A stretch of 64,000 nt of DNA, taken from positions 2,059,070 to 2,123,069 of the forward strand of contig NZ_CP030287.1 of the NCBI RefSeq assembly GCF_003287935.1. Direction: 5' to 3'. This document shows, one piece after another, positions 35,179 through 51,568 of this stretch. Origin of the DNA: Streptomyces sp. ICC1. GTDB taxonomy: Bacteria; Actinomycetota; Actinomycetes; Streptomycetales; Streptomycetaceae. A model generated the notes under the pieces. That model was not told the DNA's origin. It searched no databases and saw only the letters and a program-made list of their open reading frames with translations. The number at the start of each line of letters is the position of its first letter. The first letter of the stretch is position 1. The translations under genes were made by a program, and so were the position numbers.

Positions 35179-35208
35179 CCTGCGACGCTACCGCAGGACG
35201 TCCGTTCC

Positions 35209-35228
35209 GATTCGTCGAGCGACGAATC
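35209..35228. promoter_or_regulatory. Palindromic operator between regulator and pump
   Basis: GATTCGTCG-AG-CGACGAATC: perfect 9-bp arms around a 2-bp centre in the regulator/MFS divergent space, 40 bp upstream of the MFS start. It is the likely binding site of the ArsR-like repressor. Confidence 0.75.
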
Positions 35229-35267
35229 ATTGTTGGGTGGGGTGGGCGCACGGCGAGGCTGGGCGTC

Positions 35268-36584
35268 ATGACCCCAACCGCCGAGCCCGCGCAGGGCAAC
35301 CACCGTGCCACCTACCGGGAGGTGCTGGCCGAGCCGCGATTCCGGCTGCTCTTCTCAACCCGCACCGTCGCGATCACTGCGGACGCGCTGCGTATCACCA
35401 CGTTCTCGGTGCTGGTCTTCTCGGCCACCGGCTCTGCGCTGCTGAGCGCACTGGCCTTCGGCATCGGCTTCATCCCGCAGCTGTTCGGCTCGCTGCTGCT
35501 GGGCTCACTGGCCGACCGACTGCCGCCCCGCGCGCTCATCACCGGCGGCTACGCCTTGACGTGCGCCGCCGCCCTGCTGCTCGCCCTCGTGCGGATGCCG
35601 ATCGCGGCAAGCCTCGGTGTCGTGGCGCTGGTCGCCCTCGCCACACCGGTGTTTCACGGCGCGTCGAGTCGGCTGGTCGCGCAGTCGCTGGAGGGCGACG
35701 CCTATGTACTGGGCCGCTCACTGAACAACATCGCCTCCTCCGGCGCGCAATTGTTCGGTCTGGCGCTGGGAGGCGCGGCCGTTGCGGTACTCGGCCCACA
35801 CCGGGCACTCGCGGTAAGCGCCGCCCTCTACCTCGGTTGCGCGCTCGCTATCCGCATCCGGCTACCCCGGCTGCAGCCGGGAGAGTTCGGCGTCACACCC
35901 GGCAGCGCTCGGGGCGACGGCGGGGCCGTCCGGGCAAGCCTGCACGGTGCCGGCCGGCTGCTGCGCGGACGCACGGTGCGACGACTGATGCTGGCCCAGT
36001 GGCTACCGACCGGCTTCGTAGCGGGCGCGGAAGGTCTGATCGTCGCCTACGCAGGAGGACGCCACTTCGCGCCCGGCTGGTACGCGGTGCTGATGGGCTG
36101 TCTGCCGGTCGGCATGCTTGTCGGCGACCTGCTGGTGGGCCGACTCCTCCGGCCACTCACCCGGGAGCGACTGGTAGTCCCGTTGATTGCGCTGATGGGA
36201 CTGCCGCTGGTCGGCTTCGCTGCCGAGCCCGGAGTGGGCGTCTCGTCCTGTCTGCTGCTGCTCTGCGGCTTCGGATTCGCCTATGGTCTCGGCTTGCAAC
36301 GGCCGTTCCTGGATGCCCTGCCGCAGGATGGTCAGGGCCAGGCCTTCGGTCTGCTCGGCTCCGGCGGCATGACGCTACAGGGCGTCGGGCCGGCGTGCTT
36401 CGGGTTGGTGGCCGCAGGCATCGGAACAGGCGGCGCAATCGCCCTGGCAGGTGGCGCGGCGGCGCTTACCGCCGGCTGGATTCTCACCTGGCACCCGCCC
36501 ACCTCCCCGGTCCCCGTCCCGAACTACTCAACGGGATCGGAGAACGGCACCGAACAGCATGCGTGTAGTTCTCCTGCGCAGTAA
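35268..36584 (+). CDS. MFS transporter (cargo of the mobile element)
   Basis: The 438-residue protein has 12 hydrophobic helices and the MFS loop motif GSLADRLPPRALI. It belongs to the drug-export branch often found next to DUF5937 regulators in actinomycetes. The substrate is unknown but is expected to be a ligand of the divergent regulator. Its start ATG lies 40 bp after the operator. It is the plausible selectable cargo of the transposon. Confidence 0.87.
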   Translation: MTPTAEPAQGNHRATYREVLAEPRFRLLFSTRTVAITADALRITTFSVLVFSATGSALLSALAFGIGFIPQLFGSLLLGSLADRLPPRALITGGYALTCAAALLLALVRMPIAASLGVVALVALATPVFHGASSRLVAQSLEGDAYVLGRSLNNIASSGAQLFGLALGGAAVAVLGPHRALAVSAALYLGCALAIRIRLPRLQPGEFGVTPGSARGDGGAVRASLHGAGRLLRGRTVRRLMLAQWLPTGFVAGAEGLIVAYAGGRHFAPGWYAVLMGCLPVGMLVGDLLVGRLLRPLTRERLVVPLIALMGLPLVGFAAEPGVGVSSCLLLLCGFGFAYGLGLQRPFLDALPQDGQGQAFGLLGSGGMTLQGVGPACFGLVAAGIGTGGAIALAGGAAALTAGWILTWHPPTSPVPVPNYSTGSENGTEQHACSSPAQ

Positions 36585-37022: not shown

Positions 37023-37062
37023 CCCGACAACTTCGAACCCGACAGTCGACTTGCCTAATGAA
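37023..37062 (-). repeat. Right terminal inverted repeat of the recombinase element
   Basis: Read inward on the minus strand this begins TTCATTAGGC (37053-37062), then ACTGTCGGGTT (37036-37046) and AGTTGTCGGG (37023-37032). Two copies of the TGTCGGG block occur here against one on the left. Confidence 0.75.
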
Positions 37063-37066
37063 GGTA

Positions 37067-37642
37067 CTGGTTGTCGCCGTGGATGTATCCGACGGGAACC
37101 GGCCCGACGTGGCGCAGCTGGGCGGCGTGGTCGCGGACCAGCTGCTGCTCGCCGTCGGTGAGTCTGTCTCCGGCGCGGGTCAGGTACTTCTCCGCCCCGT
37201 CGGCGGCGGCCTCCAGAGAGGCTTCGGCTTCCACCCGATCGGCACGGCAGAGCTCCCCGGCCTCGTGCAGCCGGGCACACAGCGCCCCAGCTTGCTGGTG
37301 GACGGCCCGCCAGTCGCCGGCGGACAGGCTGAGCGCCTTCGCCGGGGTACCGGGGACCGCGGTGAGCAGCAGGGCCAGGTCCTCGGCCCGGCTGTCGATG
37401 AGGCTGGGTGCCCGGCTGTGCCCGAGGGCGGGGACGACATGCCTGTATGCGCGGGTCTCACGGGTGAAGAACTTCTCGCTCGGCGAGACCTTCACGTACC
37501 GGTGCACGCCGTCAGCGCCCTCCACCTCCCACACTCGGGAGCGGTCCCAGTCGTGCGAGGCGTCGCGTACGGAGACGATGGACCCGATCCGCTGCTCCGC
37601 CCACCCCCGCACCGCCGGCGGCAGTAGCTTCGGCTGCCTCAT
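37067..37642 (-). pseudogene. N-terminal half of the split phosphotransferase-family gene
   Basis: From ATG 37642 the minus strand encodes 192 residues of an aminoglycoside-phosphotransferase-like kinase: a beta-rich N-lobe (RVWEVEGADGVHRYVKVSPS with the ATP-binding Lys), helical linker, and the start of the catalytic loop GYIHGDNQ. The frame then runs three codons into the mobile element (YLH, stop at 37055). The second half is at 27530-27840. The upstream ABC exporter gene is on the same strand, so all three formed one series before insertion. Confidence 0.92.
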
Positions 37643-37784: not shown

Positions 37785-39674
37785 TCAGCGGTCCTGGGAG
37801 AGGGCGAGGAGCTCGGCGAAGGTCCCGCCGCCGTGGACAAGATCGTCGTAGCGGCCCTGTTCGGAGATCCGACCGTCTTCCAGCACGATGATGTGGTCCG
37901 CGATCTTCGTGTTTTCCAGCCGGTGGGTGACCATGATCGTGATCCGGTCGGCGGCGATGGCCTTGATCTGCTCGAAGATCAGATGCTCACCACGCGGGTC
38001 CATCTGAGAAGTCGGCTCGTCCAAGATCAACAACTCGGGCTTGCGGTACAGGGCCCGGGCGCACGCCTCGCGCTGCCACTCCCCGCCGGAGAAAGTGATG
38101 CCTCCCCAGATATCGCGGGCCTGGAGGGTGTTCAGCCCGTTGGGGAGGTCTTCGACGGCTTTGCGCAGGCCGACCGCGTCGATGGCCTCCCATACGGGTC
38201 CGTCGTCGTGGGTGTGCGGCTGGCCGAGGGTGATGTTCTCGCGAACCGGCCACGGCCACTTGGCGAACTCCTGCGGCACCAGGCCGGTACGTGCCCAGAC
38301 GCTGGCCGGGTCGGTGTCAGCGAGGTCGCTACCGTTCCAGGTGACCCTGCCCTTGTCGCAGAGGTAGATACCGGTGATCAGGCGCGACAGGGTCGACTTC
38401 CCGGAGCCGTTCGCTCCGACGATTGCGAGGATCTGGCCGCGCTCCAGGGTGAGGGAGACGCCGTCGACCGCAGGCTTGTCCTTCCCGGGGTACTGGTAGG
38501 AGACCTCTTCGAGCCGGATCTGCTGGACCGAGCCGGTGATCTCGCCCGGTCCGCGCTGGGGCGTAAGGGCGGCGGCCTCGTCGAGGAAGGACTGCATGTC
38601 GGTGAGATAGAGGCTGGTGTGGAAGATGGCGGCGCCGTTGATGACAACCTGGGACAGGGCGGCGAGTGCGGTCTGGACGGCGATGACGGCCGTGGCGGCG
38701 ATGGCGGGTTCGATCCGGCCGGTCACGGCGAGCCAGGCGAGCGCCCCCCACGTTGCGAGGAGGAAGACGCCGCCGGCCAGCGCGGAGAGCAGGGAGATCC
38801 GCAAGGTCCGCGGTGCGGCGGCCAGGTTCCGCCGGTCGCACCGGTCGGACAGGGCCCGGTACCAGTAGACGAGGTAGTCGGTCATCGAGTTGGCACGAAC
38901 CTCGTCCCCATACTGGGATGCGGTGGCCCACCAGCGCATCATCCCGCGCACGTTGCGGTCGGAGATGTTCGAGTAGTGGATCTCGTAGTCGACACGGGCG
39001 GTCAGCACAGCTCCGATGCCGGCGGGGAGTACGGCGAGGAGCAGCAGGGGCAACATCATGACGTTGAGCAGGGACAGGACGCTGCCGGCGGTGACCAGGC
39101 GGATCAGGGAGGACATGAAGCGCTGGGCGTCGGTGACCATCACGTGGGTGCGGACCACCCCCATCTCGGCCGCCTCCTGCCGGTCGGAGAAGCCGTCCCC
39201 GGCGTAGGCCGAGGCCTCGACCCGGCAGACCGCCTCGACCAGGGCGCTGTCCGTCTCCGAGGTGAGCAGCGGGGTGATCCGTCGGGCGGCGTAGGTGGCC
39301 ACGGCCCCTGCGACGCGGTTCATCGTGGCGGCGAGCGCGACCACGAGCAGCGCGGGCAACGCTCCGTGAAGACGGTCGCCGGCACTGCCGGCGCCGAGTA
39401 CGGGCCCCATCGCGCGGGCGGTGGCGGCCAGCAGCACCGCGGCGGATACGCCCGTGATGACCTGGCACCCGATCAGGAGCCGTACGGCCTGCCGGTCGGT
39501 CTGCCACGACAGCCGGCCGATGCGGGCCAGGACCGACGGGAGCGTGGCGCACAGCTTCTGGAAGGAGACCTCGGCGAGTGGGTTGACGGAATACTGCCCG
39601 CTGTAGGTGATCTCCGCCGGAGGCGGCGGAGGCGGAGCACCGGCCGGTTTGCTGTGTGCTTCGGACGTGGTCAT
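37785..39674 (-). CDS. ABC exporter, fused membrane and ATPase domains
   Basis: The 629-residue half-transporter has six membrane helices (about 65-340) and a C-terminal ATPase with Walker A GANGSGKST, signature FSGGEWQREACA, Walker B LLILDEPTSQMDP and H-loop VTHRLEN. A Pro-rich stretch (PPPPPPAE) lies near the start. Such proteins act as homodimers exporting lipids, peptides or drugs. The downstream genes on the same strand are the interrupted phosphotransferase and the MFS transporter, suggesting an export/self-protection locus. Confidence 0.9.
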   Translation of the reverse strand: MTTSEAHSKPAGAPPPPPPAEITYSGQYSVNPLAEVSFQKLCATLPSVLARIGRLSWQTDRQAVRLLIGCQVITGVSAAVLLAATARAMGPVLGAGSAGDRLHGALPALLVVALAATMNRVAGAVATYAARRITPLLTSETDSALVEAVCRVEASAYAGDGFSDRQEAAEMGVVRTHVMVTDAQRFMSSLIRLVTAGSVLSLLNVMMLPLLLLAVLPAGIGAVLTARVDYEIHYSNISDRNVRGMMRWWATASQYGDEVRANSMTDYLVYWYRALSDRCDRRNLAAAPRTLRISLLSALAGGVFLLATWGALAWLAVTGRIEPAIAATAVIAVQTALAALSQVVINGAAIFHTSLYLTDMQSFLDEAAALTPQRGPGEITGSVQQIRLEEVSYQYPGKDKPAVDGVSLTLERGQILAIVGANGSGKSTLSRLITGIYLCDKGRVTWNGSDLADTDPASVWARTGLVPQEFAKWPWPVRENITLGQPHTHDDGPVWEAIDAVGLRKAVEDLPNGLNTLQARDIWGGITFSGGEWQREACARALYRKPELLILDEPTSQMDPRGEHLIFEQIKAIAADRITIMVTHRLENTKIADHIIVLEDGRISEQGRYDDLVHGGGTFAELLALSQDR

Positions 39675-40250: not shown

Positions 40251-40631
40251 GTGAAGACCGAAGCGCCGGTGAGCGACTTCTACTGCAACAAGGTCCTCAG
40301 CGGGCTGGTGGAAATCCAGCCGGTGGTCGAGACGGAGCGGGTGCTCGCCTTCCACCACACCAACCCGTCGTATCCAGTGCACATCGTGGTGATTCCGAAG
40401 GCGCACGTTCCCTCGCTCACGGACCTCGGCGACGCGGACCCCGGCTTGGTATACGAAGTGGTCGAGGTGGTCCGTGAAGTCGCGGCCATGGTGGAGAAGG
40501 AGCACGGTTCGTGTTCCGTCAACACGAACCTGGGGCTCTACCAGGAGTCGAAGCACATGCACTGGCACGTGTACTACCGCGGGGAGAGCGAGAGCGAGAT
40601 CCTCGGCATGTACGGCCACCACGACCGCTGA
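40251..40631 (+). CDS. HIT-family hydrolase
   Basis: The 126-residue protein is a complete HIT domain: PSYPVHIVVIPKAHVPSL in the core and the His triad HMHWHVYY at the C-terminus. HIT proteins hydrolyse or transfer nucleotidyl groups (AMP-lysine, adenylylated intermediates, dinucleotides). The GTG start at 40251 follows an AAAGGTGACGC ribosome-binding region. It converges with the MurG-like gene, its stop lying 2 bp from that gene's end. Given the neighbouring aaRS-like and nucleotide-related enzymes, a role in cleaving an aminoacyl-AMP or nucleotide side product is possible but unproven. Confidence 0.88.
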   Translation: MKTEAPVSDFYCNKVLSGLVEIQPVVETERVLAFHHTNPSYPVHIVVIPKAHVPSLTDLGDADPGLVYEVVEVVREVAAMVEKEHGSCSVNTNLGLYQESKHMHWHVYYRGESESEILGMYGHHDR

Positions 40632-40633
40632 CC

Positions 40634-41728
40634 TCAGCGCCGTACAGCGGCTGGCCTTGCAGCGGCCAGGGTCAGCCGGGCAACCGCGGAGGCGGCTTCA
40701 CGGGCATGGCGTGCCATGTCGTCCGGGTCCGCCCCGCGCGCGGTTCCCCGGAGCTTGCCGCAGGCCTGTACGAGAGGCTGCCCGTCGGCCAGGGCCTCGT
40801 CGGCTACGACGACGCAACGGGCCGGATTCCGTTCGGCGTACGCGGCGGCGTTTTCGATCTGGTCGCCGCGGCTGACGGACGTGGGCAGCGGCACGAGCAC
40901 GGCCGGGATGGCGAGAGCTTCGAGTTCGGCGAGGGTGGTTGCGCCGGCGCGGCCGATGACGGTGTCGGCCAGGTGCAGGGCGTCGTTCATGTCCTGGTGC
41001 AGGTATTCGAACTGCCAGTACCCGGCCCGTCCTTCGAGGCTGGGGTTCAGGTTGCCCTTGCCGCAGATGTGAAGGACCGCGTACTGGTCGCGCAGGGCGT
41101 CGAGTTGGGCGCGGACGGCCTTGTTGACGCGCTGGGAGCCGCTGCTGCCGCAGAAGACGAGCAGCACCCGGGTGCTCCCGGGTACCCCGAGGCGGTTGCG
41201 GAGGCCGGCGGGGTCTGCCGTGGTGAGGTCCGATCGGAGCGGGAGCCCGGTGATCTCCGCCTTGGCGGATAGCCAGCGCGGGGTTTCGGGGGCCGGCGTC
41301 GTGCTGAAGCAGACGGTGTCGGCGAGGCGCGCGAGAATGCGGTTGGCGAGTCCGAGGGAGCGGTCGGACTCGTGGATCACGATGGGGACCTTGCACAGCC
41401 AGGCGGCCACGCCGACCGGGACCGACACGTACGAGCCCTTGGAGAACAGGGCGTCGGGGCGCTCCGAGCGCATCACGCGCCAGGCGGCGGCCACCCCGCG
41501 TGCGACGGTGAGGGGCATGAGGAGGTTGCTCCACGAGCGGTGGCGCTTCAGCCCGGCGGCGGGCACTGCCCGAAAGGGCAGGCCGGCGCGCTCGGCGTAC
41601 TCGCTTTCGATGCTGCCGCTGCGGCCGATGAACACGAGCTGGGCTCCGGAGGCGGCGAGCTGGTCGGCCACGGCCAGGGCGGGGACGACGTGGCCGGCGC
41701 TCGCGCCACCGGTGATAGCGATCTTCAC
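40634..41728 (-). CDS. MurG-like GT28 glycosyltransferase
   Basis: The 364-residue GT-B enzyme resembles MurG: N-terminal GGASAGHVVPALAVADQL (the lipid/sugar-binding Gly loop), HESDRSLGLANR, then VFCGSSGSQRVN and GRAGATTLAELEAL in the nucleotide-sugar domain, and DQIENAAAY. MurG moves GlcNAc from UDP-GlcNAc to a lipid carrier. Position outside the division/cell-wall cluster and the altered loops indicate a specialised paralogue. It is transcribed in the same direction as the tRNA-like gene and the ProRS-like operon, starting 69 bp after the tRNA-like gene. GTG start. Confidence 0.87.
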   Translation of the reverse strand: MKIAITGGASAGHVVPALAVADQLAASGAQLVFIGRSGSIESEYAERAGLPFRAVPAAGLKRHRSWSNLLMPLTVARGVAAAWRVMRSERPDALFSKGSYVSVPVGVAAWLCKVPIVIHESDRSLGLANRILARLADTVCFSTTPAPETPRWLSAKAEITGLPLRSDLTTADPAGLRNRLGVPGSTRVLLVFCGSSGSQRVNKAVRAQLDALRDQYAVLHICGKGNLNPSLEGRAGYWQFEYLHQDMNDALHLADTVIGRAGATTLAELEALAIPAVLVPLPTSVSRGDQIENAAAYAERNPARCVVVADEALADGQPLVQACGKLRGTARGADPDDMARHAREAASAVARLTLAAARPAAVRR

Positions 41729-41796
41729 AGTATTCCCATTCGAGTTCTGTGCGGCACGCTGCAGCCGCACCCACCGGCAGAATTGAATTGTGTGTC

Positions 41797-41871
41797 TGGT
41801 CGGGTCGACTGGATTCGAACCAGTTCCTCGACAACGCTTTTGCCGTGCTCCACCAGTTGAGCTACGACCCG
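41797..41871 (-). tRNA. Non-canonical tRNA-like gene (proline-type acceptor, no U33)
   Basis: The 75-nt minus-strand sequence folds as a full cloverleaf: acceptor CGGGTCG/CGACCCG, D stem GCTC/GAGC with GG in the loop, anticodon stem CGGCA/TGTCG, T arm ACTGG-TTCGAAT-CCAGT, discriminator A73 and an encoded CCA. The anticodon loop is AAAGCGT: A at position 33 instead of the near-universal U, A34-G35-C36 as nominal anticodon. C1-G72 with A73 is the bacterial tRNA-Pro acceptor signature, yet the GG of a proline anticodon is missing. It lies between a ProRS paralogue and a MurG-like gene. I infer a dedicated, non-decoding amino-acid carrier. Confidence 0.8.
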
Positions 41872-42044
41872 TTTGAGTTGCAACGATGGCGACTATATGG
41901 CTGGCTATCTCGGCACGTCAACGGTGGGATGGGAATTGACTGGCGTGAATGTCGGAGGGTCCTGATAATTCGAGGCAGCCCGAATTGGCGTCGCTCGTAA
42001 TCGGAATTCGAGCGACGCCACGTTCGGTTAGTGGCCTGTTTGCT

Positions 42045-43712
42045 CTATTGGCGTGTGCTGCAGATTTGGTGAACGGTGCTGGGTTCGGTGGTTGTGGTGC
42101 GACCGGTCCAGCGGTTGGTGATCTCGACTTCGTCGTCGTTGTGTCGGGGGGAGATCAGGGCGTGGTGCGGCAGGCCCAGGAGTCGGGCGTAGCGGAGCTT
42201 GTCGCCGGCGGGCAGGTGCCGGTCGTCGATGAGCAAGCTCACTCCGTGGGTGCGGAGTTGGCGGACGAGCTGGTCGGTGCGTTCGCGCATGGCGGGGAGG
42301 TCGGCGCGCAGGACGGTGAGGTGCAGGTCGGCGGGTCCGGTGCCGGCCTTCCAGCGCAGGCCGTGGTGGTCTCGGTGGATTTCGGCGGTGGTCTGGAGGC
42401 AGCGGGTGATGCCGATGCCGGAGCAGGCCATCCAGGGCGTCTGGGCGGCGCCGTGCTCGTCGGTGAAGGCCAGGTTCATGGGGGCGGAGTACTGGCGGCC
42501 GAGTTCGAAGACATGGGCGACTTCGACCGCGTGGGTGTCGCTGTACTGGCCCTGGTGGCAGCGCACGCAGGTGGATCCGGGCGTGGCCTGGTGGAGGTCG
42601 GTGCCCGAGGGCGTGATGGCCAGCAGGCCGCGCCCGCCGTCCCAGGACATGGAGGTGCGCAGTCCGTCGGCCCCGTCGGAGATGGCGAACTTCTCCAGGG
42701 TGCTGACGGAGGTGTCGAAGAGGAGGACGGTGCCCGGGGCTCGGGCGGCGGTCCAGGGGGTGAGGGTGCCGGCCGGGGTGCCGTACAGCTCCGGAAGTAG
42801 GTCGGGGTCCAGGAGGGTGACGTGGGTGGCGCCGGTGGCTTCGGCGAGTTTGCGGGCGCTGACCTGGAGGTCGGAGCGGATGGCGACGGCGGTGGGCCGG
42901 CGACTGCCGTCGGGGCCGGTCGCGGCGAAGACGATGACGTTGACGACGGGTTCCCCCGTGTGGGGTGCGGGCTTGGAGCTGAGGACGGCGGCGTCTCCTC
43001 GGTTGCCGCAGTGCCTGCAGGCCAGGATGGTGCTCTGCCCGCTGTCGCCGAGGAGGAGGTGCTCGGTACTGGGGCCGGCGGAGATGCTGCCCCCGTCGGC
43101 GGGGGCTTGGAAAGTGCCGGTCAGGCCCATTCCGGTGAGGGCGGCCGCGCACGCGTCGTTGAGGAAGCGGGTCGAAGTCCGCATCGCCTCGGGGCTGGCA
43201 TCGAAGGTGTAGCAGTCGGCCATCGTGAACTCGCGGGAGCGCATGAGGCCGCCGCGGGGGGAGAGCTCGTCGCGGAACTTGGTGGTGCTGAGGAAGAGGC
43301 GGGCGGGCAGATCCCGGAAGGACCGCAGGCGGTCGCGGACCGTGGCGGTGGCGATCTCCTCGGAGGTCGGCGCCAGGCACATGTCCTCGCCGCTGCGGCT
43401 GCGGGAGGTCAGGAGGGCTCCCTCCCGCTGGTAGGCGTCCCAGCGCCCTGTCTCCTTCCACAGCCTGCTGCTCTGCAGGGTGGGGAAGGAGACCGTGTGG
43501 GCGCCGCGTTCCTCGAAGGCCCGGCGGGCGATGGAGGACAGGCGGTCGTGAACCCTTAGTCCGAGGGGCAGGAGGGTGAAGACACCGCTGGCGGCTGTGG
43601 CGGAGACGAGGCCGAGGGAGTCGAGGAGCTCCATCGTGGTGGATCCGGGGTCGGCGGCGCGGGGGCGGACCGGAGGCCACAGGGTGCTGGTGTAGAGGGG
43701 GGTGTCATGCAC
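42045..43712 (-). CDS. Prolyl-tRNA synthetase paralogue (class II aaRS)
   Basis: The 555-residue protein follows the bacterial ProRS plan: FTLLPLGLRVHDRL, motif 2 TKFRDELSPRGGLMRSREF (near residue 145), a divergent insertion, motif 3 WMACSGIGITRCL, and a C-terminal HGTP anticodon-binding domain (LLIDDRHLPAGDKLRYARLLG). Unusual features are two CxxC pairs, CRHCG and CVRCH, in the insertion region, suggesting a bound zinc. It is the last gene of a coupled operon and is followed 173 bp later by the tRNA-like gene. It would activate proline or a related imino acid and charge that RNA. The GTG start overlaps the GT4 stop by eight bases. Confidence 0.88.
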   Translation of the reverse strand: MHDTPLYTSTLWPPVRPRAADPGSTTMELLDSLGLVSATAASGVFTLLPLGLRVHDRLSSIARRAFEERGAHTVSFPTLQSSRLWKETGRWDAYQREGALLTSRSRSGEDMCLAPTSEEIATATVRDRLRSFRDLPARLFLSTTKFRDELSPRGGLMRSREFTMADCYTFDASPEAMRTSTRFLNDACAAALTGMGLTGTFQAPADGGSISAGPSTEHLLLGDSGQSTILACRHCGNRGDAAVLSSKPAPHTGEPVVNVIVFAATGPDGSRRPTAVAIRSDLQVSARKLAEATGATHVTLLDPDLLPELYGTPAGTLTPWTAARAPGTVLLFDTSVSTLEKFAISDGADGLRTSMSWDGGRGLLAITPSGTDLHQATPGSTCVRCHQGQYSDTHAVEVAHVFELGRQYSAPMNLAFTDEHGAAQTPWMACSGIGITRCLQTTAEIHRDHHGLRWKAGTGPADLHLTVLRADLPAMRERTDQLVRQLRTHGVSLLIDDRHLPAGDKLRYARLLGLPHHALISPRHNDDEVEITNRWTGRTTTTEPSTVHQICSTRQ

Positions 43713-44814
43713 GGGTTGCTCCGATCACCGTGTCGGACAGGGCGCCGAGGCGGTCGGCGGTGGCGGCGATGTCGTGCTGGCGGCTGTTGTCGGCGGCGGA
43801 CTGGCGGAGGATCGGGCGCAGGTGCGGGTTGGCGGCCACACAGTCGATGACCGCGGCCAGTGCATGGCTGTCACCCGGCGGGTAGGACAGGCCGCCGTGG
43901 CCGAGGGTGGCGCCGAGGCCCGGTACGTCGCTGTAGAGGATCGGGAGGCCGTGGGCCTGGGCTTCGATCGCTACGAGCCCGTACGCCTCCAGGGTGCGGG
44001 TCGTGAACACGAAGGCGTCGAAGGCCCGGAAGCGGGCCCACAGGTCGGCGCGGGGGGCGAAGGGTTCGAACGTGACCCGGTGTGCGAGGCCGTGGTGCTG
44101 CACGCGGGCCTGGAGCGCGGGCAGTTCGGGTCCGCTGCCGATGACGGTGAGGTGGTGCGGCTCCCGGGTGGCGGCGAGCGCGTCGATGGCGGTGATGGTC
44201 GACTTGTTGTCGTCCAGGCGCCCGGCGTGCAGGAGCCGCAGGACGCTGCCGGTGGTGGGCTCCGTGGTGGGGGCCGCAGGGAGCGGGATGCCCCACGGGA
44301 CGGTGACCAGCCGGTCCGCGTACAGGTTCCCGGTCAGGGTGTTCACCTGGTCGGCCATGGCCTGGTTGGGGACGGCGACCGCCGTGCTGGCGGCGACGAT
44401 CTCGTGGAGCACCGTGCGGGCCTGGCCAATCTCGGTGGCCACGATGATGTCCGTGCCGTGCGCGATCGAGATCAGGGGGATGGCGCCGGCCGCGCGGGCG
44501 AAGGCCAGGGCCAGGCCGAAGCCGAGGTGCTGGGCGTGGATGAGGTCCGGCTCCGCCCGGGTGAGGAGCTGGGCCACCTCGCTGGTCAGGGAGTCGGCGT
44601 ACCGCTCGAAGCCGGGGCCGTACGGTGCCTTCTGGGAGGCGAGGGGGACGGTCTCTTCGAAGCGGTGCTTCCAGGTGCCGGAGCCGGGCAACGCGGCGAA
44701 CGTGGTGTGGAAGCGGTCACTGAGGCGCGGATAGGTGTCGTTGCACCAGATAGTCGAGCCGCAGGAGGGCTCCAGCGGCAGGTCGATGCCGGTGAGGATG
44801 CGGTGTCGGCTCAC
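43705..44814 (-). CDS. GT4-family glycosyltransferase
   Basis: The 369-residue GT-B enzyme has an N-terminal acceptor domain (DLIHAQHLGFGLALAFAR, SIAHGTDIIV) and a C-terminal nucleotide-sugar domain (LLHAGRLDDNKS, EAYGLVAIEAQAHGLPIL with the EX7E motif). It is a retaining glycosyltransferase of the MshA-like type. With the adjacent PIG-L deacetylase it recalls the MshA/MshB order of mycothiol synthesis: GlcNAc transfer, then deacetylation. The GTG start overlaps the WbqC gene by four bases. Confidence 0.88.
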   Translation of the reverse strand: MSRHRILTGIDLPLEPSCGSTIWCNDTYPRLSDRFHTTFAALPGSGTWKHRFEETVPLASQKAPYGPGFERYADSLTSEVAQLLTRAEPDLIHAQHLGFGLALAFARAAGAIPLISIAHGTDIIVATEIGQARTVLHEIVAASTAVAVPNQAMADQVNTLTGNLYADRLVTVPWGIPLPAAPTTEPTTGSVLRLLHAGRLDDNKSTITAIDALAATREPHHLTVIGSGPELPALQARVQHHGLAHRVTFEPFAPRADLWARFRAFDAFVFTTRTLEAYGLVAIEAQAHGLPILYSDVPGLGATLGHGGLSYPPGDSHALAAVIDCVAANPHLRPILRQSAADNSRQHDIAATADRLGALSDTVIGATRA

Positions 44815-45545
44815 GCGCTCGCTCCGGTGGATGCGGTCGGGAGGTAGGTGTCCAGTCCGGTGCGCAGCATCGCGGCCAGCCCGGCCCAGCCGGTCGCCGC
44901 TACCGCGTCGATGAACGAGAGGCAGGGGATGAAGCCCTGCTGGGGCCATGCCTGTCCGTACTGGGGGTGCCGGTCTGCGAACTCGTTCCAGACCACGGAG
45001 ATGCCGTGCCCGGCCAGGGCGTCGGTGTCGAGGTAGCCGCGGGTGCCCGAACCGGCCCACAGCACGTGCTCGTCGGCCTGGGCGGCGATCTGGGCCAGCC
45101 GCACCGACTTGCCGCTGTCGGCCGTCGTGTCCATGTCGGAGGTGAGCCGCAGGCGGGCGTGGGAGCCGAGCGCGGTCGCGATCTGGTTGATGAGGTCGAC
45201 GTTCAGGTCCAGGAGCCAGCGGTGGCCGCCGCCGAGGGCGGGACCAAGGACGTTCAGCGCCTCCTCGACGTACGGGGTGCGCGCGTAGGCTAGGCGGACG
45301 CGGCGCAGCAGGCTGTCGGGGTCGAAACTGTCGGCAAGGCGGGTGTCGCGGATCAGCTGGCCCGAGGCGCGGACGACGGGGACCGTGAGCCAGGCCGGCC
45401 CGTCGGGGGTCTTGATGCGGTTGCGGTTGAGGAACCCGCCCTCGGTGTACTGCACGTCGTCGAACAGGGCGACGGTGGTGCAGCCGAGGAGGGCTTCGCA
45501 GAAACCCAGCCACGGGGCGAACCCGGGCTGCTCGATGTAGATCAC
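44811..45545 (-). CDS. WbqC-family protein
   Basis: The 244-residue protein shows the WbqC start (IYIEQPGFAPWLGFCEALL), FDDVQYTEGGFLNRNRIKTP and a late HPQYGQAWPQQGFIPCLSFI segment. WbqC-like proteins occur in sugar and polysaccharide gene clusters and are thought to be involved in amino-sugar acylation or related transfers; the exact reaction is not established. It has 4-base overlaps with the genes on both sides. GTG start. Confidence 0.87.
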   Translation of the reverse strand: MIYIEQPGFAPWLGFCEALLGCTTVALFDDVQYTEGGFLNRNRIKTPDGPAWLTVPVVRASGQLIRDTRLADSFDPDSLLRRVRLAYARTPYVEEALNVLGPALGGGHRWLLDLNVDLINQIATALGSHARLRLTSDMDTTADSGKSVRLAQIAAQADEHVLWAGSGTRGYLDTDALAGHGISVVWNEFADRHPQYGQAWPQQGFIPCLSFIDAVAATGWAGLAAMLRTGLDTYLPTASTGASA

Positions 45546-46270
45546 GAAAGCTCCAATCCGAGGGCCGGGTGGGAGAGGGTGAGCAGCGGTGTCTCGAACG
45601 CCTCGAAGGAACGGCCCGCCGCAGCGGCGGCCGGGCGCAGCCGCCACCCGGCGTCGGCGGCGCGGTGGCGGGTGTACTCCTCGCCGAGGTACCAGCGTCC
45701 GGCCTGGCTCTGATGCGCTTGCAGGGCCTTGATCTTGTCGTCGAGGACATCGGTGATGTCGACGAGGACGGTCGGCGCGAACTGGGATCGCGGTGCGTGG
45801 GGTTCGCCGTACAGGACGGTGCGGCACGTGCTGACCCGGGTGGCCGCGTTCGAGGCCGCCACAGCTACCGCGAGGTGGTCTTGGTGGTCGTTGGCCACCC
45901 GTGGGCTGTGGGTGATCAGCGTGGTGCAGCCGGATCGGACGAGCTCCCCTTCTAGGAGGGAGATCATGTGCCGGTCCGCGGTCAGGGCCCCGTCTTCCAG
46001 GCCGAGGCCGGACAGCTCGATACCGGTACCCGCCCATGCCGCAGCGGATTCGACGGCGCGGTCCTCCGGCCTCAGCCGCCGTCCCGCCTCGCTGTCCGCG
46101 ACCGAGACGCCGTTCGCGCCGTGGGTGGCGGTCAGGATGCTGACGCGGGCGCCGGCCTGGCGGAGCCGAAGGAGGGTTCCACCACAGAGCAGTTCCGCGT
46201 CGTCGGGGTGGGCCACGACGGCGACCACGTGCTCGCGCGCATCGCCTTGGGGCCCGGGCACGGCGGTCAC
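45542..46270 (-). CDS. PIG-L family N-acetylglucosamine deacetylase
   Basis: The 242-residue zinc hydrolase carries AHPDDAELLCGG (zinc His and catalytic Asp) near the start and the third ligand in HQDHLAVAV. The family removes acetyl groups from GlcNAc conjugates, as MshB, BshB and antibiotic deacetylases do. It would act after one of the cluster's glycosyltransferases. The GTG at 46270 overlaps the Dcd-like stop by four bases and gives a short leader before the AHPDD motif. Confidence 0.88.
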   Translation of the reverse strand: MTAVPGPQGDAREHVVAVVAHPDDAELLCGGTLLRLRQAGARVSILTATHGANGVSVADSEAGRRLRPEDRAVESAAAWAGTGIELSGLGLEDGALTADRHMISLLEGELVRSGCTTLITHSPRVANDHQDHLAVAVAASNAATRVSTCRTVLYGEPHAPRSQFAPTVLVDITDVLDDKIKALQAHQSQAGRWYLGEEYTRHRAADAGWRLRPAAAAAGRSFEAFETPLLTLSHPALGLELS

Positions 46271-46794
46271 CGGTCCTCGAAGTCGCGGTAGGACTGGGAG
46301 GGCATGGGCCCGGTGCTGTTCTGGTACTTGCCGTCGTAGAGGACGATCTCGCCGGTGGTCTCCCAGAAGGTGACCTGGCCGATCGGCATGCCGGGATAGA
46401 TCAGGACCGGGGCTCCCGAGCAGTGCAGTTGGAGGGTCAGCTGACCGTAGGACCCGAGATCGATCAGGTCCGCGGTCACATGGACGAACAGTCCCAGGCG
46501 CGCGATGGAGGATTTGGCGCGGATGATGGGGACCACGGTGTCGCTGCCGATCCGCTCCAGCGTCGGTGCGAGGTAGATGCGGTCCGGGGACAGCACCATT
46601 CCGTCCGTGGGGATCGGGTGTACTTCGAAGGCGTTCTCCCTGGCGCAGTCGAGGACTTCGGCGGTGTACCAGCCGATGGTGTCCCCGAGGTGGAAGTCCA
46701 GGCTGTTGGGCTGGATGAGGGTGGGGTCGTAGGGCGAGACCTTGATCTCGCCGCGTTCGATGCGGGCATGGATCTCGGGGCCGGTGAGGATCAC
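46267..46794 (-). CDS. dCTP-deaminase-fold protein with Glu-to-Gln active-site change
   Basis: The 175-residue protein matches Dcd: YDPTLIQPNSLDFHLG, the IIRAKSSIARLGLFVH segment that binds triphosphate, PGMPIGQVTFWE. In E. coli Dcd the catalytic Glu138 sits in the VLEFYNSG segment; the aligned segment here is TLQLHCSG, with Gln in its place. It may be a non-catalytic partner of the neighbouring paralogue, a binding protein or an enzyme with another chemistry. GTG start overlapping the paralogue stop by four bases. Confidence 0.85.
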   Translation of the reverse strand: MILTGPEIHARIERGEIKVSPYDPTLIQPNSLDFHLGDTIGWYTAEVLDCARENAFEVHPIPTDGMVLSPDRIYLAPTLERIGSDTVVPIIRAKSSIARLGLFVHVTADLIDLGSYGQLTLQLHCSGAPVLIYPGMPIGQVTFWETTGEIVLYDGKYQNSTGPMPSQSYRDFEDR

Positions 46795-47333
46795 GCGGCG
46801 ACCTCCCGTACGTGGGTGCCGGCGGCTGCGTGGGGCGAACAGGGGGAAGGCTCGCTGAGGGACCCGTAATAGCCGCCATAGGGCACGATCCGGCCCCGAG
46901 GCCGCCAGAAACTGACCTGCCCGATCCGCATGCCCGCGTACACGCGCAGCGGCTGCACGACGACGATCTCCAGGGTCCACTGGTGGATGGCGCCGAGCTG
47001 GCCGAGGTCCGCGGAGACCTGGAGGTAGGTGCCGAGCCGCCCTATCGAGGAACGGCCGATCAGACTCGTCACGAACTCGGCGCTGCCGATCCGCTCCACC
47101 GTCACGCCCAGGTAGAGGGTGCGGGGCTGCAGGACGTAGCCGCCGGGGCCGATCTCGATGCTCTCGGTCTCAGCTTCGCGGCGCGGGTCTACGGGGCTGC
47201 CGACCAGGGTCTTCAGCGTGCTGCCGAGGCGGTAGTTGTAGCTGTTGGGGTTCAGGAGAGCCGGGTCGAACGGATCGATGGTGATCGCCCCCGACGCGAC
47301 CGCGTCCCGGACCGCGGGACCGGTGAGGATCAC
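46791..47333 (-). CDS. dCTP-deaminase/dUTPase-fold protein, catalytic Glu retained
   Basis: The 180-residue protein is the sister of the downstream gene product: FDPALLNPNSYNYRLG, SLIGRSSIGRLGTYLQ and AGMRIGQVSFWRP. The catalytic segment reads WTLEIVVVQ, keeping the Glu. The family deaminates dCTP (some also hydrolyse dUTP). In this setting it may act on a modified cytidine nucleotide. The C-terminal 25 residues are longer than usual and may close over the site. GTG start, 4-base overlap with the oxygenase gene. Confidence 0.87.
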   Translation of the reverse strand: MILTGPAVRDAVASGAITIDPFDPALLNPNSYNYRLGSTLKTLVGSPVDPRREAETESIEIGPGGYVLQPRTLYLGVTVERIGSAEFVTSLIGRSSIGRLGTYLQVSADLGQLGAIHQWTLEIVVVQPLRVYAGMRIGQVSFWRPRGRIVPYGGYYGSLSEPSPCSPHAAAGTHVREVAA

Positions 47334-48130
47334 AGGACGCCTCCGACATAGGTCTGCTGCAGGAGCCGCCTCTCGTCCGGGGCGACCGTCTCCTGGCCCA
47401 GGCCGAGCGGCATGCGGCCGTGGGCGTAGCGGTGCTGGTCGAAGACGAGCAGCTGGCCGGGCAGCAGGCGCACCGCGATGCGCTGGTGCTCGACACAGGC
47501 GACGAGTCGGCCGAAGGCATCCGCAATGCGCCGCTGGTCGGCGTCGTTCGCCAGGAGTTCGCCCCGTTCCAGATGCGGCTGCATCTTCGCGGTGAACCGG
47601 ACCGGCCCTTCCCCGCCGGCCGGAGGAAGGACCGCGAACCGCTCCAGGCTGGATCCGACTCCGTGTACGCCCTCGTCGGTGAAGTACGAGTAGACCGGCT
47701 CGGACAGCAGCCTGCGGTCAACGTCGGTGAGGCTCTCGACGGCCGCCCACATGTCGGCCAGGGCCGATGCGCCGCCGCCACGCGGGTCCGAGCGCACGCA
47801 GTACAGGGCGATATAGCGGGGCATCAGGGTCCGGTCGACGAGGTCGACGTGGAGCCGGTTCTCACCCACACCGTGCGTGCGCCCCGGGTCGGCGTCGGTG
47901 CGAACGCTCAGCGTGCTCCAGCATCCGTCCTGCGGGTACACCGCCAGAACCGGGCCCAGGGCGGAGAGCAGGCTGAGCCCCAGCTCCATGTTGAGGGCGT
48001 GTGCGGCCGGGTCCTCGAAGGCGATCAGGGCCCGGCCGTTCCCGGCCCCGGACAGGTGATCGGTGAAGTCCCGCGGAGCCGTCGCGCCCCGCGTCAGGTC
48101 TCGGCTCGGAAGAGGGCTGAAGTCGTTCAT
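47330..48130 (-). CDS. 2-oxoglutarate/Fe(II)-dependent oxygenase (TauD/CAS-like)
   Basis: The 266-residue protein has the Fe(II) ligand pair HVD in GENRLHVDLVDRT and a late His in FDQHRYAHGRMP with an Arg nearby for 2-oxoglutarate. This matches clavaminate-synthase-like oxygenases, common tailoring enzymes that hydroxylate or desaturate amino acids or nucleosides. The ATG at 48130 overlaps the phosphatase stop (ATGA). Substrate unknown; a charged amino acid or a nucleoside are candidates from context. Confidence 0.85.
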   Translation of the reverse strand: MNDFSPLPSRDLTRGATAPRDFTDHLSGAGNGRALIAFEDPAAHALNMELGLSLLSALGPVLAVYPQDGCWSTLSVRTDADPGRTHGVGENRLHVDLVDRTLMPRYIALYCVRSDPRGGGASALADMWAAVESLTDVDRRLLSEPVYSYFTDEGVHGVGSSLERFAVLPPAGGEGPVRFTAKMQPHLERGELLANDADQRRIADAFGRLVACVEHQRIAVRLLPGQLLVFDQHRYAHGRMPLGLGQETVAPDERRLLQQTYVGGVL

Positions 48131-49305
48131 GGGGACGTCTCCTCGGTGAGGCGGGTGAGGATGCCGCGCAGGGTGCACGGCGGGTCGGCCGGCCGGTATG
48201 ACAGGCCCAGCCGGTCGGCGAGGTAGCGGGTGGTGGAGACGACGGCCGGTTCTGCCGGCGGCGTCTCGGGGGCGCTCGTCACGTCCTCACCGAGCACGGA
48301 GGCCAGGTTGGCCAGAGCCCGCGCGTCCTGCAGGCCGTCGAGGACGACGATGTCGCTGTCGAAGGGCGCGCAGTTCAGCAGGTCGATACGCAGGACGTCC
48401 GCGGGCAGGCCGGTGCGCAGGCTGAAGGTGTTGACGAGGAAGGCGCCGGCCTTGGTTTCGCCCACGGCTTGTCGCGCGAGGGCACGAGCGGCGTGCTCGC
48501 GGTCCGGCAGCGGCATGGGCAGCGTGCCGACGCGGTCCGACCCCCAGCGGAGGAAGGCGTCGACATCCTCCGCGAGCCCTTCGGCCGGCTCGGTGCCGGA
48601 GCTGAACGTGTCGATCGTGACGCGGTGGGAGCCCACCTTGTCCAGGCCCAGGCGCAGCAGCCCCATGCCGGTCTCCGGCGCCTTGGCGACGTGCCGGCCG
48701 CGGGAGCACCAGTGGGAGGACGGGCTGTGGCAGTGGCCGGCGATGACCACCGTGAGGGGCCAGTCCTGGTCCTGGTCGGTGATGTCGTGCGCGAACCCGG
48801 AGTGGCTGACGCCGACGACGAGGTCCGCACCGGCCTCCAGGAGCCGGTCCCGCTCTGCCGCGATCAGCTCGGCGGTCGGCTCCGCGTAGGTGAATCCGGA
48901 CCGCTCCGAGCGCGGGACCGCGTTGAAGGCCTGCCGGCCGAGGTAGCCGACGATGCCGATGGCCAGCTCGCGGCCGCGCAGCACCAGACCGCTCTCCCAC
49001 CTCCCACGGAAAGACGCCGGCGGGCGCAGGTTCGCACAGACCAGGGGAGGGAACAGGTCAGGGCGGTCCAGGCTCATCAGGTCGGCGAGGTCGTGGTTCC
49101 CGGGCACGACCGCGTCGTAGTGCTCACGGAGGATCCGCTCTTCGACCCGGCCCCCGGAGAACTCGTGGAAGGCGTTGCCACCGAAGAAGTCGCCGGCGTC
49201 CACGACCAGGGCCCCGGCCTGCCTCCGCTCACGCAGGGCGGCCAGCATCTCGGCGCCGTCGGGAACGGAGGAGTGGAAGCAGCCGGTCGCGATCAGCTCT
49301 TGCAT
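48127..49305 (-). CDS. Calcineurin-like metallophosphatase (5'-nucleotidase family)
   Basis: The 392-residue protein resembles UshA/5'-nucleotidases without a signal peptide. Metal motifs in order are VDAGDFFGGNAFHE, PGNHDLADL, GVSHSGFAHD and IAGHCHS. A C-terminal nucleotide-binding-type domain covers about 255-392. Being cytoplasmic, it probably removes phosphate from a pathway nucleotide or sugar phosphate rather than scavenging outside the cell. The ATG start lies 5 bp after the methyltransferase stop. Confidence 0.85.
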   Translation of the reverse strand: MQELIATGCFHSSVPDGAEMLAALRERRQAGALVVDAGDFFGGNAFHEFSGGRVEERILREHYDAVVPGNHDLADLMSLDRPDLFPPLVCANLRPPASFRGRWESGLVLRGRELAIGIVGYLGRQAFNAVPRSERSGFTYAEPTAELIAAERDRLLEAGADLVVGVSHSGFAHDITDQDQDWPLTVVIAGHCHSPSSHWCSRGRHVAKAPETGMGLLRLGLDKVGSHRVTIDTFSSGTEPAEGLAEDVDAFLRWGSDRVGTLPMPLPDREHAARALARQAVGETKAGAFLVNTFSLRTGLPADVLRIDLLNCAPFDSDIVVLDGLQDARALANLASVLGEDVTSAPETPPAEPAVVSTTRYLADRLGLSYRPADPPCTLRGILTRLTEETSP

Positions 49306-49310
49306 GTTCC

Positions 49311-49916
49311 TCAGCCCCGCTCGATCGCCACGACACGAAGAACGGACGGCGCCGACGGCCAGAAGTCGGAGCGGGAAATGCCATCGACCTCCTCCAGCCG
49401 AAGGCCGCCGCCTTCCTCGTCGAGCTGCGCCATGGTCTGCCGGGTGATCACGACCAGCCCCCGCTCCACCCGCAGCGACGTGAAGACGTGCCGGATCAGA
49501 GCTGTGGAGAGGTCGGCGTCGAAGGGCATGATCGCCAGGAGGTGCGTCCCGGCAGCCAGGCCCCCGTCCAGGTCGACGGCCCGGACATCGGCGATGGTCA
49601 CTCGCGTGCCCTCGCCGAAGCCGGAGAGTCGGCCGGTCAGGTGGGCCCCCAGCCGGTCGTCCTTCTCCACCGCCCACAGGGGGTGCCCGGCACTGGCCGC
49701 GGCAAGCGACAGGGTCCCCAGCCCAGCGCCGACTTCCAGTACAGGCCGACCCTTGGGGATGGCAGCGGATGCGAGCAAGCGCAGCGCCGCGTCCTCATGG
49801 CGCAGGAAGTACTGGCCCAAGTCCGCCCGTGTGGTGAAGCCCGCCGCTGCGACAGCCTCTGCCGCCGAGGGGGCCGACGGCTCCGCCAGGCCCCGGGCCG
49901 GTGCGATCTCGATCAA
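49311..49916 (-). CDS. KsgA/Erm-like SAM-dependent methyltransferase
   Basis: About 201 residues from a TTG start at 49916 (the frame is open to a TTG at 49985). It has ADLGQYFLRHEDAALRLLAS, typical of the start of rRNA adenine dimethyltransferases, the SAM motif LEVGAGLGTLSLAAA, and acidic VEKDDRL. The target-base motif NLPY/F is altered to IMPF, so the target may not be an rRNA adenine. It is the first gene of the coupled minus-strand operon, so it could be a resistance rRNA methylase or act on the tRNA-like gene product. The TTG at 49916 is favoured by an upstream GAAGGGA. Confidence 0.78.
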   Translation of the reverse strand: MIEIAPARGLAEPSAPSAAEAVAAAGFTTRADLGQYFLRHEDAALRLLASAAIPKGRPVLEVGAGLGTLSLAAASAGHPLWAVEKDDRLGAHLTGRLSGFGEGTRVTIADVRAVDLDGGLAAGTHLLAIMPFDADLSTALIRHVFTSLRVERGLVVITRQTMAQLDEEGGGLRLEEVDGISRSDFWPSAPSVLRVVAIERG

Positions 49917-50182: not shown

Positions 50183-51568
50183 GTGGCAGGCAGCCAACGG
50201 CGGGCAAGACAGCCGAACGAACCGCTGGCGCGACTCATCACGGCCGCGGGAGCCAGCCACATCTCGCTGGCCGCGCAGATCAACAAGATCGCGGCAGCGG
50301 CCGGCGTCGTCACCCGCTACGAGAAGACCAGCGTCGCCAATTGGGTGAATCTGGGGATGATCCCCCGGGGCCGGGCTCCGGAGTTCGTGGCCGCTGCGCT
50401 GCAAGAACGCCTCGGTCGGCCTGTCAGTCTCCAGGAAATCGGTATGTACCGCCGTGAACGAGGCGACGCCGACATGGGGTTGGATTTCGCACGCGACCCC
50501 GCCGACGCCGTACACGTCGCCGCGACCTACTGGAGAACCGTGGACCGCCGAAAGCTCATCACCACCGGATTCGCCGTATCCGCATACGCCACCCCGGTGA
50601 TGCGCTGGATGACCACGCCGGCCGACCCGGCGGTCACCCACCAGGGCGGCCAGCGAGTGGGACGCGGGGATGTAGAGGACCTCTGGCAGGCCGCCGAGGA
50701 CGCGCGGCTGTGGGATTCCCGGTACGGAGGCGGAAACGGGAAGGCGAACTCGGTCACCGAATGCCTCAAGCTCAAGGCGGCCCCGCTGCTTACGGGTACC
50801 TACACCGAGACGGTGGGCAAAGAACTGTTCACCGCCACCGCCGAGCTCTCCCGCGTCGTCGGATGGAGTGCCTTCGACATGGGACAGCACGAACTCGCGC
50901 AGCGCCATTTCGTCCAGGCCCTGCGCCTGGCCCGGGCCGCCGGAGACGTCCAGACCGGCTGCTACGTCCTGACCACCATGTCCCTGCAGACGTTCCTGCG
51001 AGGATTCCCCCGCGAAGCGGCGGACATGGCCGAAGGCGCCTACGAGCGGGCCAAGGGGCACGCGGCACCCCGAGTGCTCGCCTTCGCGAAGCTCGCCCAG
51101 GCCCGCGCCCACGCCCGAGAGGGCGACGCCCGGGCGGCGGGCGCTGCGCTGGCGCTCTCCGAGAGCCTCCTCGACTCGATCGGGCCTCACACCCAAGATC
51201 CCGAATGGCTCGCCTACTTCACCCACGCTCGCCTGGCCACCGACGCAACCGAGATCTACCGGGACCTGGCCAACCCGAAGGCCGCACTCACCTGGGCCCG
51301 GCAGGCAGATGCCATGCCCGCCGGCCGCTTCACCCGAGCAGTCGGCATCCGCCTCGCCGTCCTCGCCACCAGCCACCTCCAGGCCCGCGACCTCACCCAG
51401 GGCCTCCAACTCGGAACCCAGGCACTGCAGGTGCTCCGTCAGGTCCACTCCAGCCGCGCCCACGGCTACGTCCGCGACATCACCACGGCCCTGGCCCCCT
51501 GGCGGGCCGAGCCCCAGGTAGCCGACTTCACCCACCAGGCCCGTACGGCGCTCGCGGCAACCGCGTAA
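50183..51568 (+). CDS. HTH regulator with TPR-like C-terminal domain, divergent from the operon
   Basis: The 461-residue protein has an N-terminal DNA-binding helical region (about 5-75; LARLITAAGASHISLAAQIN then YEKTSVANWVNLGMIPRGRA) and a long TPR-like helical domain (about 150-455). This layout is common in Streptomyces regulators that respond to small signals or peptides. It is transcribed away from the methyltransferase-to-ProRS operon across an approximately 265-bp space, so it is the likely controller. GTG start with AGGGAGGG upstream. Confidence 0.82.
   Translation: MAGSQRRARQPNEPLARLITAAGASHISLAAQINKIAAAAGVVTRYEKTSVANWVNLGMIPRGRAPEFVAAALQERLGRPVSLQEIGMYRRERGDADMGLDFARDPADAVHVAATYWRTVDRRKLITTGFAVSAYATPVMRWMTTPADPAVTHQGGQRVGRGDVEDLWQAAEDARLWDSRYGGGNGKANSVTECLKLKAAPLLTGTYTETVGKELFTATAELSRVVGWSAFDMGQHELAQRHFVQALRLARAAGDVQTGCYVLTTMSLQTFLRGFPREAADMAEGAYERAKGHAAPRVLAFAKLAQARAHAREGDARAAGAALALSESLLDSIGPHTQDPEWLAYFTHARLATDATEIYRDLANPKAALTWARQADAMPAGRFTRAVGIRLAVLATSHLQARDLTQGLQLGTQALQVLRQVHSSRAHGYVRDITTALAPWRAEPQVADFTHQARTALAATA

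Follow-up and report, generated by a model that had tools for sequence, protein, structure and literature searches.

Organization of the locus

A stretch of 64,000 nucleotides from Streptomyces sp. ICC1 (contig NZ_CP030287.1, positions 2,059,070 to 2,123,069; hereafter the window) was analysed. The source genome consists of one contig of 9.03 Mb, and the closest named relatives of its proteins belong to Streptomyces. The window carries a block of nine minus-strand coding genes (49916-42045), followed by a tRNA gene and then by a gene for a MurG paralogue. The last of the nine genes encodes a paralogue of prolyl-tRNA synthetase (ProRS), and the tRNA looks like a non-decoding tRNA that serves this paralogue. 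The features of the block and its immediate neighbours are as follows.

49311..49916, minus: methyltransferase with the fold of the RrnaAD family, probably for small-molecule tailoring (Pfam RrnaAD, 30.5 bits)
48127..49305, minus: metallophosphatase with a 5'-nucleotidase-like N-domain (Pfam Metallophos; PDB matches)
47330..48130, minus: 2-oxoglutarate oxygenase of the TauD/clavaminate-synthase type (Pfam TauD)
46791..47333, minus: Dcd1, dCTP-deaminase-fold protein (Pfam DCD; dCTP_deam 62.9 of 92.8 bits)
46267..46794, minus: Dcd2, dCTP-deaminase-fold protein (Pfam DCD; dCTP_deam 106.6 of 92.8 bits)
45542..46270, minus: PIG-L deacetylase, BshB/MshB-like at family level (Pfam PIG-L)
44811..45545, minus: WbqC protein with a BshC-like predicted fold, candidate amide-forming enzyme (Pfam WbqC)
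43705..44814, minus: GT4 glycosyltransferase, MshA/BshA-like at family level (Pfam)
42045..43712, minus: ProRS paralogue that retains the catalytic motifs but has an altered pocket and anticodon domain and a shortened editing domain
41892..41921, minus: site resembling a promoter for the tRNA gene (TTGACG, 18 bases, TATAGT; 10 of 12 matches)
41797..41871, minus: dedicated, apparently non-decoding tRNA with A33, AGC, C1:G72, A73 and an encoded CCA (ARAGORN, Rfam)
40634..41728, minus: MurG-like GT28 glycosyltransferase paralogue (Pfam GT28 N and C domains)
40251..40631, plus: HIT-family protein, convergent to the MurG-like gene (Pfam HIT)
50183..51568, plus: NsdA-family regulator, divergent and upstream of the block (388.2 bits)

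Gene starts were set by fitting to orthologue lengths. The junctions among the nine coding genes then comprise a single gap of 5 bases, six overlaps of 4 bases and one of 8 (+5, -4, -4, -4, -4, -4, -4, -8), and none of the nine contains an internal stop. Pfam matches were obtained for RrnaAD, Metallophos, TauD, DCD (twice), PIG-L, WbqC, Glycos_transf_1, the core, editing and anticodon domains of a class II synthetase, and GT28. Among the ten minus-strand proteins, an NCBIfam cut-off was reached only by Dcd2 (dCTP_deam). All the genes named in an initial annotation made from the sequence alone, which had described nine coupled minus-strand genes, a tRNA-like gene and a MurG paralogue, were thus recovered by Pfam, ARAGORN and Rfam.

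The tRNA gene

The tRNA-like gene is a real tRNA gene, being called by ARAGORN and by Rfam (47.8 bits for a cut-off of 29). Twelve orthologous copies were aligned. The cloverleaf was paired in 99.2% of 252 cells, and the two unpaired cells were found in L034 (Streptomyces sp. GQFP) and in a decayed copy, L053. Two-sided changes occurred at five pairs; shuffled alignments gave a mean of 1.9 and reached five in 1/500. When partners were slid as a control, at most 48.4% of cells were paired and two-sided changes fell to zero. An integration site or a chance tRNA was considered and rejected, the tRNA being conserved within the block with compensatory changes.

Positions 32-38 read A/U-A-A-G-C/U-G/A-U in the 12 copies, so that A33 replaces U33 in every one. 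U33 is present in 60 of the 61 distinct tRNA genes of the ICC1 genome, the block tRNA being the sole exception. This set was made up of the ARAGORN calls over the loci of all 77 Rfam tRNA hits of that genome, to which the block tRNA was added separately. The triplet is not constant among orthologues (AGC in 7/12, AGU in 5/12). ARAGORN labelled the corresponding copies Ala(AGC) and Thr(AGU), but these amino-acid names carry little meaning because the anticodon loop has no U33. Glycosylation of the queuosine type was rejected, position 34 being A in 12/12 copies.

C1:G72 and A73 are identity elements for ProRS. Both are present in 12/12 copies, and within the ICC1 genome this combination is common only to the block tRNA and four tRNA-Pro sequences. 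CCA is encoded in 10/12 copies and absent from L036 and L053. Upstream of the tRNA, the TTGACG-N18-TATAGT site scored 10 of 12, when shuffles contained 0.1 sites on average. TTGAC occurs at a similar position in 11/12 copies and is replaced by TCGAC in L053. Elsewhere in the ICC1 genome, a tandem array (L152, G000:C1:4923256-4923780) contains five tRNA hits, including Arg(UCU) with U1:A72 and G73, and Glu(CUC).

The ProRS paralogue and its pairing with the tRNA

A protein-database search in which the 8000 candidates with most words in common were scored placed the paralogue in a clade of 81 protein clusters, the window's own included, at an identity of at least 40%; among the candidates scored, the next stood near 32%. 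The source names shown were Streptomyces, Kitasatospora, Nocardia and a metagenome-assembled genome of Pseudonocardiaceae. PTSEE, K-F/Y-R-x-E and G-I/V-G-x-x-R (the TxE loop and class II motifs 2 and 3) were each kept in 80/80 readable clusters. The TDA of the anticodon domain was altered, with an aromatic middle residue in 79/80. The pocket loop and the editing domain differ from those of the organism's own housekeeping ProRS, and the editing domain is shortened. A lysine in this domain has an editing role in ProRS; since its placement by MAFFT was uncertain, it was counted by pattern match, giving N in 60, K in 13 and an unread position in 8 of the 81 clusters. The paralogue scored under the curated ProRS cut-offs (proS_fam_II 291 of 306.7 bits; PRK09194 339.1 of 558 bits).

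A subclade at 40-47% identity to the paralogue (P0068-P0077) includes proteins of S. hayashii and S. tanashiensis. Another type of ProRS, 30-32% identical to the paralogue, was seen at L054, L126 (genome G287) and L055 (genome G049); in the stretches examined, no block surrounded the copies of G287 and G049.

The paralogue was present in 7/392 Streptomyces genomes, drawn in a single draw, and the exact tRNA pattern was found in precisely those seven. Zero mismatches were allowed in the pattern search, so diverged copies such as those of L121-L123 would escape it. Genome G911 carries a variant of the block (L124) in which both partners are missing. Its only ProRS match, at 33%, is its housekeeping ProRS, and no tRNA match was obtained at E 0.001 when the whole genome was searched. 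At the place expected for the pair, between the GT4 and MurG-like genes, lies a gene of the FGE-sulfatase family (L124:6509-7261, minus; Pfam E 3.6e-29), possibly an alternative activation or oxidation module.

This pattern of joint occurrence and joint absence is the strongest sign that paralogue and tRNA form one module. The two are very probably a matched pair that takes no part in decoding, and it is probable, with less assurance, that the pair feeds a small molecule. The aminoacyl transfer proposed initially for the ProRS and tRNA genes is supported as a reading of the sequences, because the two genes co-occur, G911 has neither of them, and the tRNA appears not to decode.

Conservation and distribution of the block

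Conservation of the gene set as a block had been named beforehand as a check on the initial annotation. A tblastn search with the window proteins showed the complete block, in identical order, at 11 of the 13 loci examined, the window included. The ten others are L033 (S. turgidiscabies Car8), L034, L036, L050, L051, L052, L069, L121, L122 and L123, the last three coming from two further genera of the family. The block is one conserved unit. Of the two incomplete loci, L053 is without the first genes of the block and its GT4 and ProRS frames are broken, and L124 has no methyltransferase, ProRS-like gene or tRNA and a metallophosphatase match that changes frame. In the alignments of these loci, the MurG row of L051 and the oxygenase row of L052 were mis-cut, which lowers those two consensus lines.

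L069 lies on a linear plasmid (312 kb) of Streptomyces sp. NBC_00239. One locus-tag number is skipped in its annotation between the ProRS-like and MurG-like genes, where ARAGORN calls the tRNA. Beside this plasmid copy (L069:20169-26833) are annotated two radical SAM proteins, an LD-carboxypeptidase, an amino acid--tRNA ligase-related protein and an SDR oxidoreductase.

The distribution of the block is sparse. Orthologues of the metallophosphatase were found in 5/394 genomes of a family sample and in 1/394 of a class sample, namely the ICC1 genome itself. Four further matches of the class sample, at 32-33%, are not orthologues. Near a metallophosphatase relative in G205 (31-33%, L125) no other block gene was found except weak ABC and regulator matches. 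The ProRS and WbqC records of Nocardia gipuzkoensis have an identical longest contig (174,919), which suggests that the two genes lie on one contig there.

The convergent HIT gene stands beside the MurG-like gene in 13/13 loci, about 0.9 kb away in L033; the HIT protein scores under its NCBIfam models. Relatives of the NsdA-family regulator (about 26-29% identity) lie upstream in six other loci (L033, L034, L069, L121, L122 and L123). On the other side, the window contains an MFS transporter (35115-36584), an APH-like frame of 195 aa that looks short (37055-37642) and an ABC exporter (37785-39674); tblastn did not find these three as a set at other block loci.

Sugar, nucleotide-type and tailoring proteins

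The predicted structure of the WbqC protein has a BshC-like fold; the structural re-alignment covered Foldseek's own candidates. BshC is the last enzyme of the bacillithiol pathway, which is related to that of mycothiol, and the mycothiol-type logic that had been recognized in the GT4 and PIG-L genes is strengthened by this fold. When 50 WbqC members were compared with NCBIfam, no thiol_BshC match was listed. A BshC gene was sought on a Paenibacillus megaplasmid for profile comparison and none was there. The MurG-like protein scored under the murG cut-off (213.1 of 250.25 bits).

The two conserved acidic residues of dCTP deaminase, read from PDB alignments, have functional roles. Dcd1 keeps the Glu of TLE and has lost the Asp of ID-x-G; Dcd2 keeps that Asp and has TLQ instead of TLE. 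Each state was seen in 12/12 sequences. The two residues were thus not found together in one chain, even though Dcd2 passes the dCTP_deam score; the two proteins may complement each other's residues within a mixed oligomer. The best PDB matches of the metallophosphatase were 5'-nucleotidases (E 9.7e-9). The oxygenase was weakly nearest to lysine 3-hydroxylase (E 5.7e-5) and clavaminate synthase.

The methyltransferase was under every KsgA/Erm cut-off (ksgA 54.3 of 171 bits, Erm 41.1 of 212 bits). The NLPY motif, which marks adenine-N6 methylation, is replaced by I-x-P-F in 11/11 aligned sequences. A role in self-protection, as suggested initially, is weakened by these two results; an rRNA-protecting enzyme was set aside and small-molecule tailoring fits better. 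PADLOC gave a single match among the ten minus-strand proteins, that of the methyltransferase to mads_2 (E 2.9e-11, residues 25-159).

Proposed pathway and alternative explanations

The block is read as a biosynthetic operon in which an amino-acid-activating module of its own, the ProRS paralogue with the non-decoding tRNA, is coupled to a bacillithiol-type sugar module. This reading is held tentatively, at a little under an even chance. The GT4 enzyme would attach N-acetylglucosamine to an acceptor, and deacetylation by the PIG-L protein would expose an amine. The ProRS paralogue would attach proline, or an imino acid close to it, to the dedicated tRNA, and the BshC-fold WbqC protein would transfer the aminoacyl group from the tRNA to the amine. 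The chances that WbqC performs such a transfer are evenly balanced. The narrower proposal, that the non-decoding tRNA and its own synthetase are a private charging system whose sole use is to supply the residue with which a BshC-fold enzyme acylates an amino sugar, is slightly more speculative than the operon reading as a whole. The two Dcd proteins and the 5'-nucleotidase-like enzyme would perhaps prepare a nucleoside as the acceptor, a tentative assignment that leans on the families of these proteins and is given somewhat less than an even chance. Decoration of the molecule would fall to the oxygenase, the methyltransferase and the MurG-like transferase, while the HIT protein might hydrolyse a nucleotide-linked product or by-product. 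We infer that the product is an aminoacyl-glucosaminyl compound, perhaps nucleoside-linked.

Several results weigh against this scheme. The GT4 and PIG-L proteins are far under the cut-offs of the thiol enzymes (MshA 51 of 462.5 bits and BshA 41.9 of 273.7 bits for GT4; under both BshB and MshB for PIG-L, with BshB1 at 62.8 of 182.5 bits). The Foldseek match of WbqC to BshC has an E of 8.4e-3 and a TM of only 0.42, and no link between the sequences was obtained with a profile against PDB sequences, Pfam and NCBIfam. Thirty other WbqC loci, at 28 distinct places and mostly about 3.6 kb long, showed no PIG-L motif nearby, so that WbqC has no general tie to deacetylated amino sugars. L124 retains WbqC, GT4 and PIG-L without the ProRS/tRNA pair, though its metallophosphatase is frame-broken. 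For the tRNA, the number of pair types was within the range of the shuffles (119/500).

Four other explanations were weighed. The best of them, although unlikely, is that the ProRS paralogue is itself an aminoacyltransferase, which would charge the dedicated tRNA and use its own active site to pass the residue on to a small molecule; WbqC would then have another role. SbzA (IleRS-like) and AcmF (AlaRS-like) carry out such transfers (PMC12945691), and the pocket loop and editing domain of the paralogue are unlike those of the organism's own ProRS. However, the motifs of normal charging are retained in all the readable clusters, unlike in AcmF; no dedicated tRNA is reported for the SbzA and AcmF systems in the review sections examined (PMC12945691); and the BshC-like fold of WbqC would be left unexplained.

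A carrier role of the tRNA, by which the bound amino acid would be modified, for example by the 2-oxoglutarate oxygenase, and released later, is clearly less probable. A tRNA apart from translation would shield modified residues, and the nearest matches of the oxygenase, at weak similarity, are amino acid hydroxylases. These family matches are weak, however, no carrier-tRNA case was found in the literature examined, and L124 has the oxygenase but no tRNA. Slightly less credible again is a resistant spare copy of ProRS protecting against a prolyl-adenylate-like product. AcmD is such a copy for ascamycin (PMC12945691), and an HIT protein accompanies the block at every locus. A spare copy must charge normal tRNA-Pro, yet the TDA of the anticodon domain is changed in nearly all clusters and the editing domain is shortened, and the gene is accompanied by an unusual tRNA of its own. 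An orthogonal system recoding Ala GCU or Thr ACU codons, or an ordinary decoding tRNA, is very improbable: ARAGORN and Rfam accept the tRNA and most copies encode CCA, but A33 is invariant where the other tRNA genes of the genome have U33, and the triplet shifts from AGC to AGU between orthologues served by one synthetase clade.

Comparison with known systems

The known systems closest to the block include bacillithiol (BshA/BshB/BshC) and mycothiol (MshA/MshB/MshC) synthesis, whose common logic is to glycosylate, deacetylate and add an amino acid. GT4 and PIG-L occur together in all three, joined in the block by the BshC-like predicted fold. The block differs in that GT4 and PIG-L match at family level only and WbqC has no sequence match to BshC, and it adds the ProRS paralogue, the tRNA and nucleotide-type enzymes. 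The mycothiol system also has a relative of aminoacyl-tRNA synthetases, MshC, a synthetase homologue that works as a ligase (PMC4159871).

Relatives of synthetases that are believed to aminoacylate a small molecule also occur in known Streptomyces biosynthetic loci. They include AcmF, helped by AcmD, and SbzA, synthetase-like proteins in small-molecule aminoacylation (PMC12945691), and VlmL of valanimycin, one of the pathways supplied with aminoacyl-tRNAs by synthetase paralogues (PMC4159871). As described in PMC12945691, the AcmD/AcmF and SbzA systems use Ala-tRNA-Ala and Ile-tRNA-Ile, whereas the block has a private tRNA; the terms 'tRNA gene' and 'dedicated tRNA' are absent from that review. 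Because these cases already show synthetase-like proteins in small-molecule aminoacylation, the new parts of the block are the private tRNA and the BshC-like module. A literature search found no described matching cluster and no dedicated tRNA in a biosynthetic cluster; it covered open-licence papers, and the print record may hold one.

The block paralogue has the fold and class II motifs of bacterial ProRS, but its editing domain is shortened or missing, its pocket loop and anticodon domain are changed and it has no canonical NCBIfam score. Non-translational tRNAs exist in other bacteria, such as the peptidoglycan tRNA-Gly of S. aureus and tRNA-Other of Bacillus cereus; the block tRNA differs from these in sitting with its own synthetase and biosynthetic enzymes. 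The pyrrolysine cassette also unites a tRNA, a synthetase and biosynthetic genes in one locus. Its tRNA decodes UAG, whereas the block tRNA has no U33 and no constant triplet. Overall, the interpretation given in the initial annotation is partly supported.

Significance

In the examples examined, known aminoacyl-tRNA-dependent small-molecule synthesis uses the tRNAs of translation. A tRNA apparently locked out of the ribosome within a gene block would show that the charging machinery is separable as a metabolic module. It would also provide a natural pair of synthetase and tRNA, possibly orthogonal to that of the host. A synthetase paralogue next to a tRNA that lacks U33 would be a handle for genome mining of a product class that has no name. 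For the WbqC family, which has no assigned reaction in the databases searched, the BshC-like fold is a testable idea. The BshC reaction is not known to have been rebuilt in vitro. If the proposed use of the private charging system is true, WbqC and BshC would belong to one family of enzymes that form amides and can take the amino acid from an aminoacyl-tRNA, and a testable donor would be at hand for the last step of bacillithiol synthesis.

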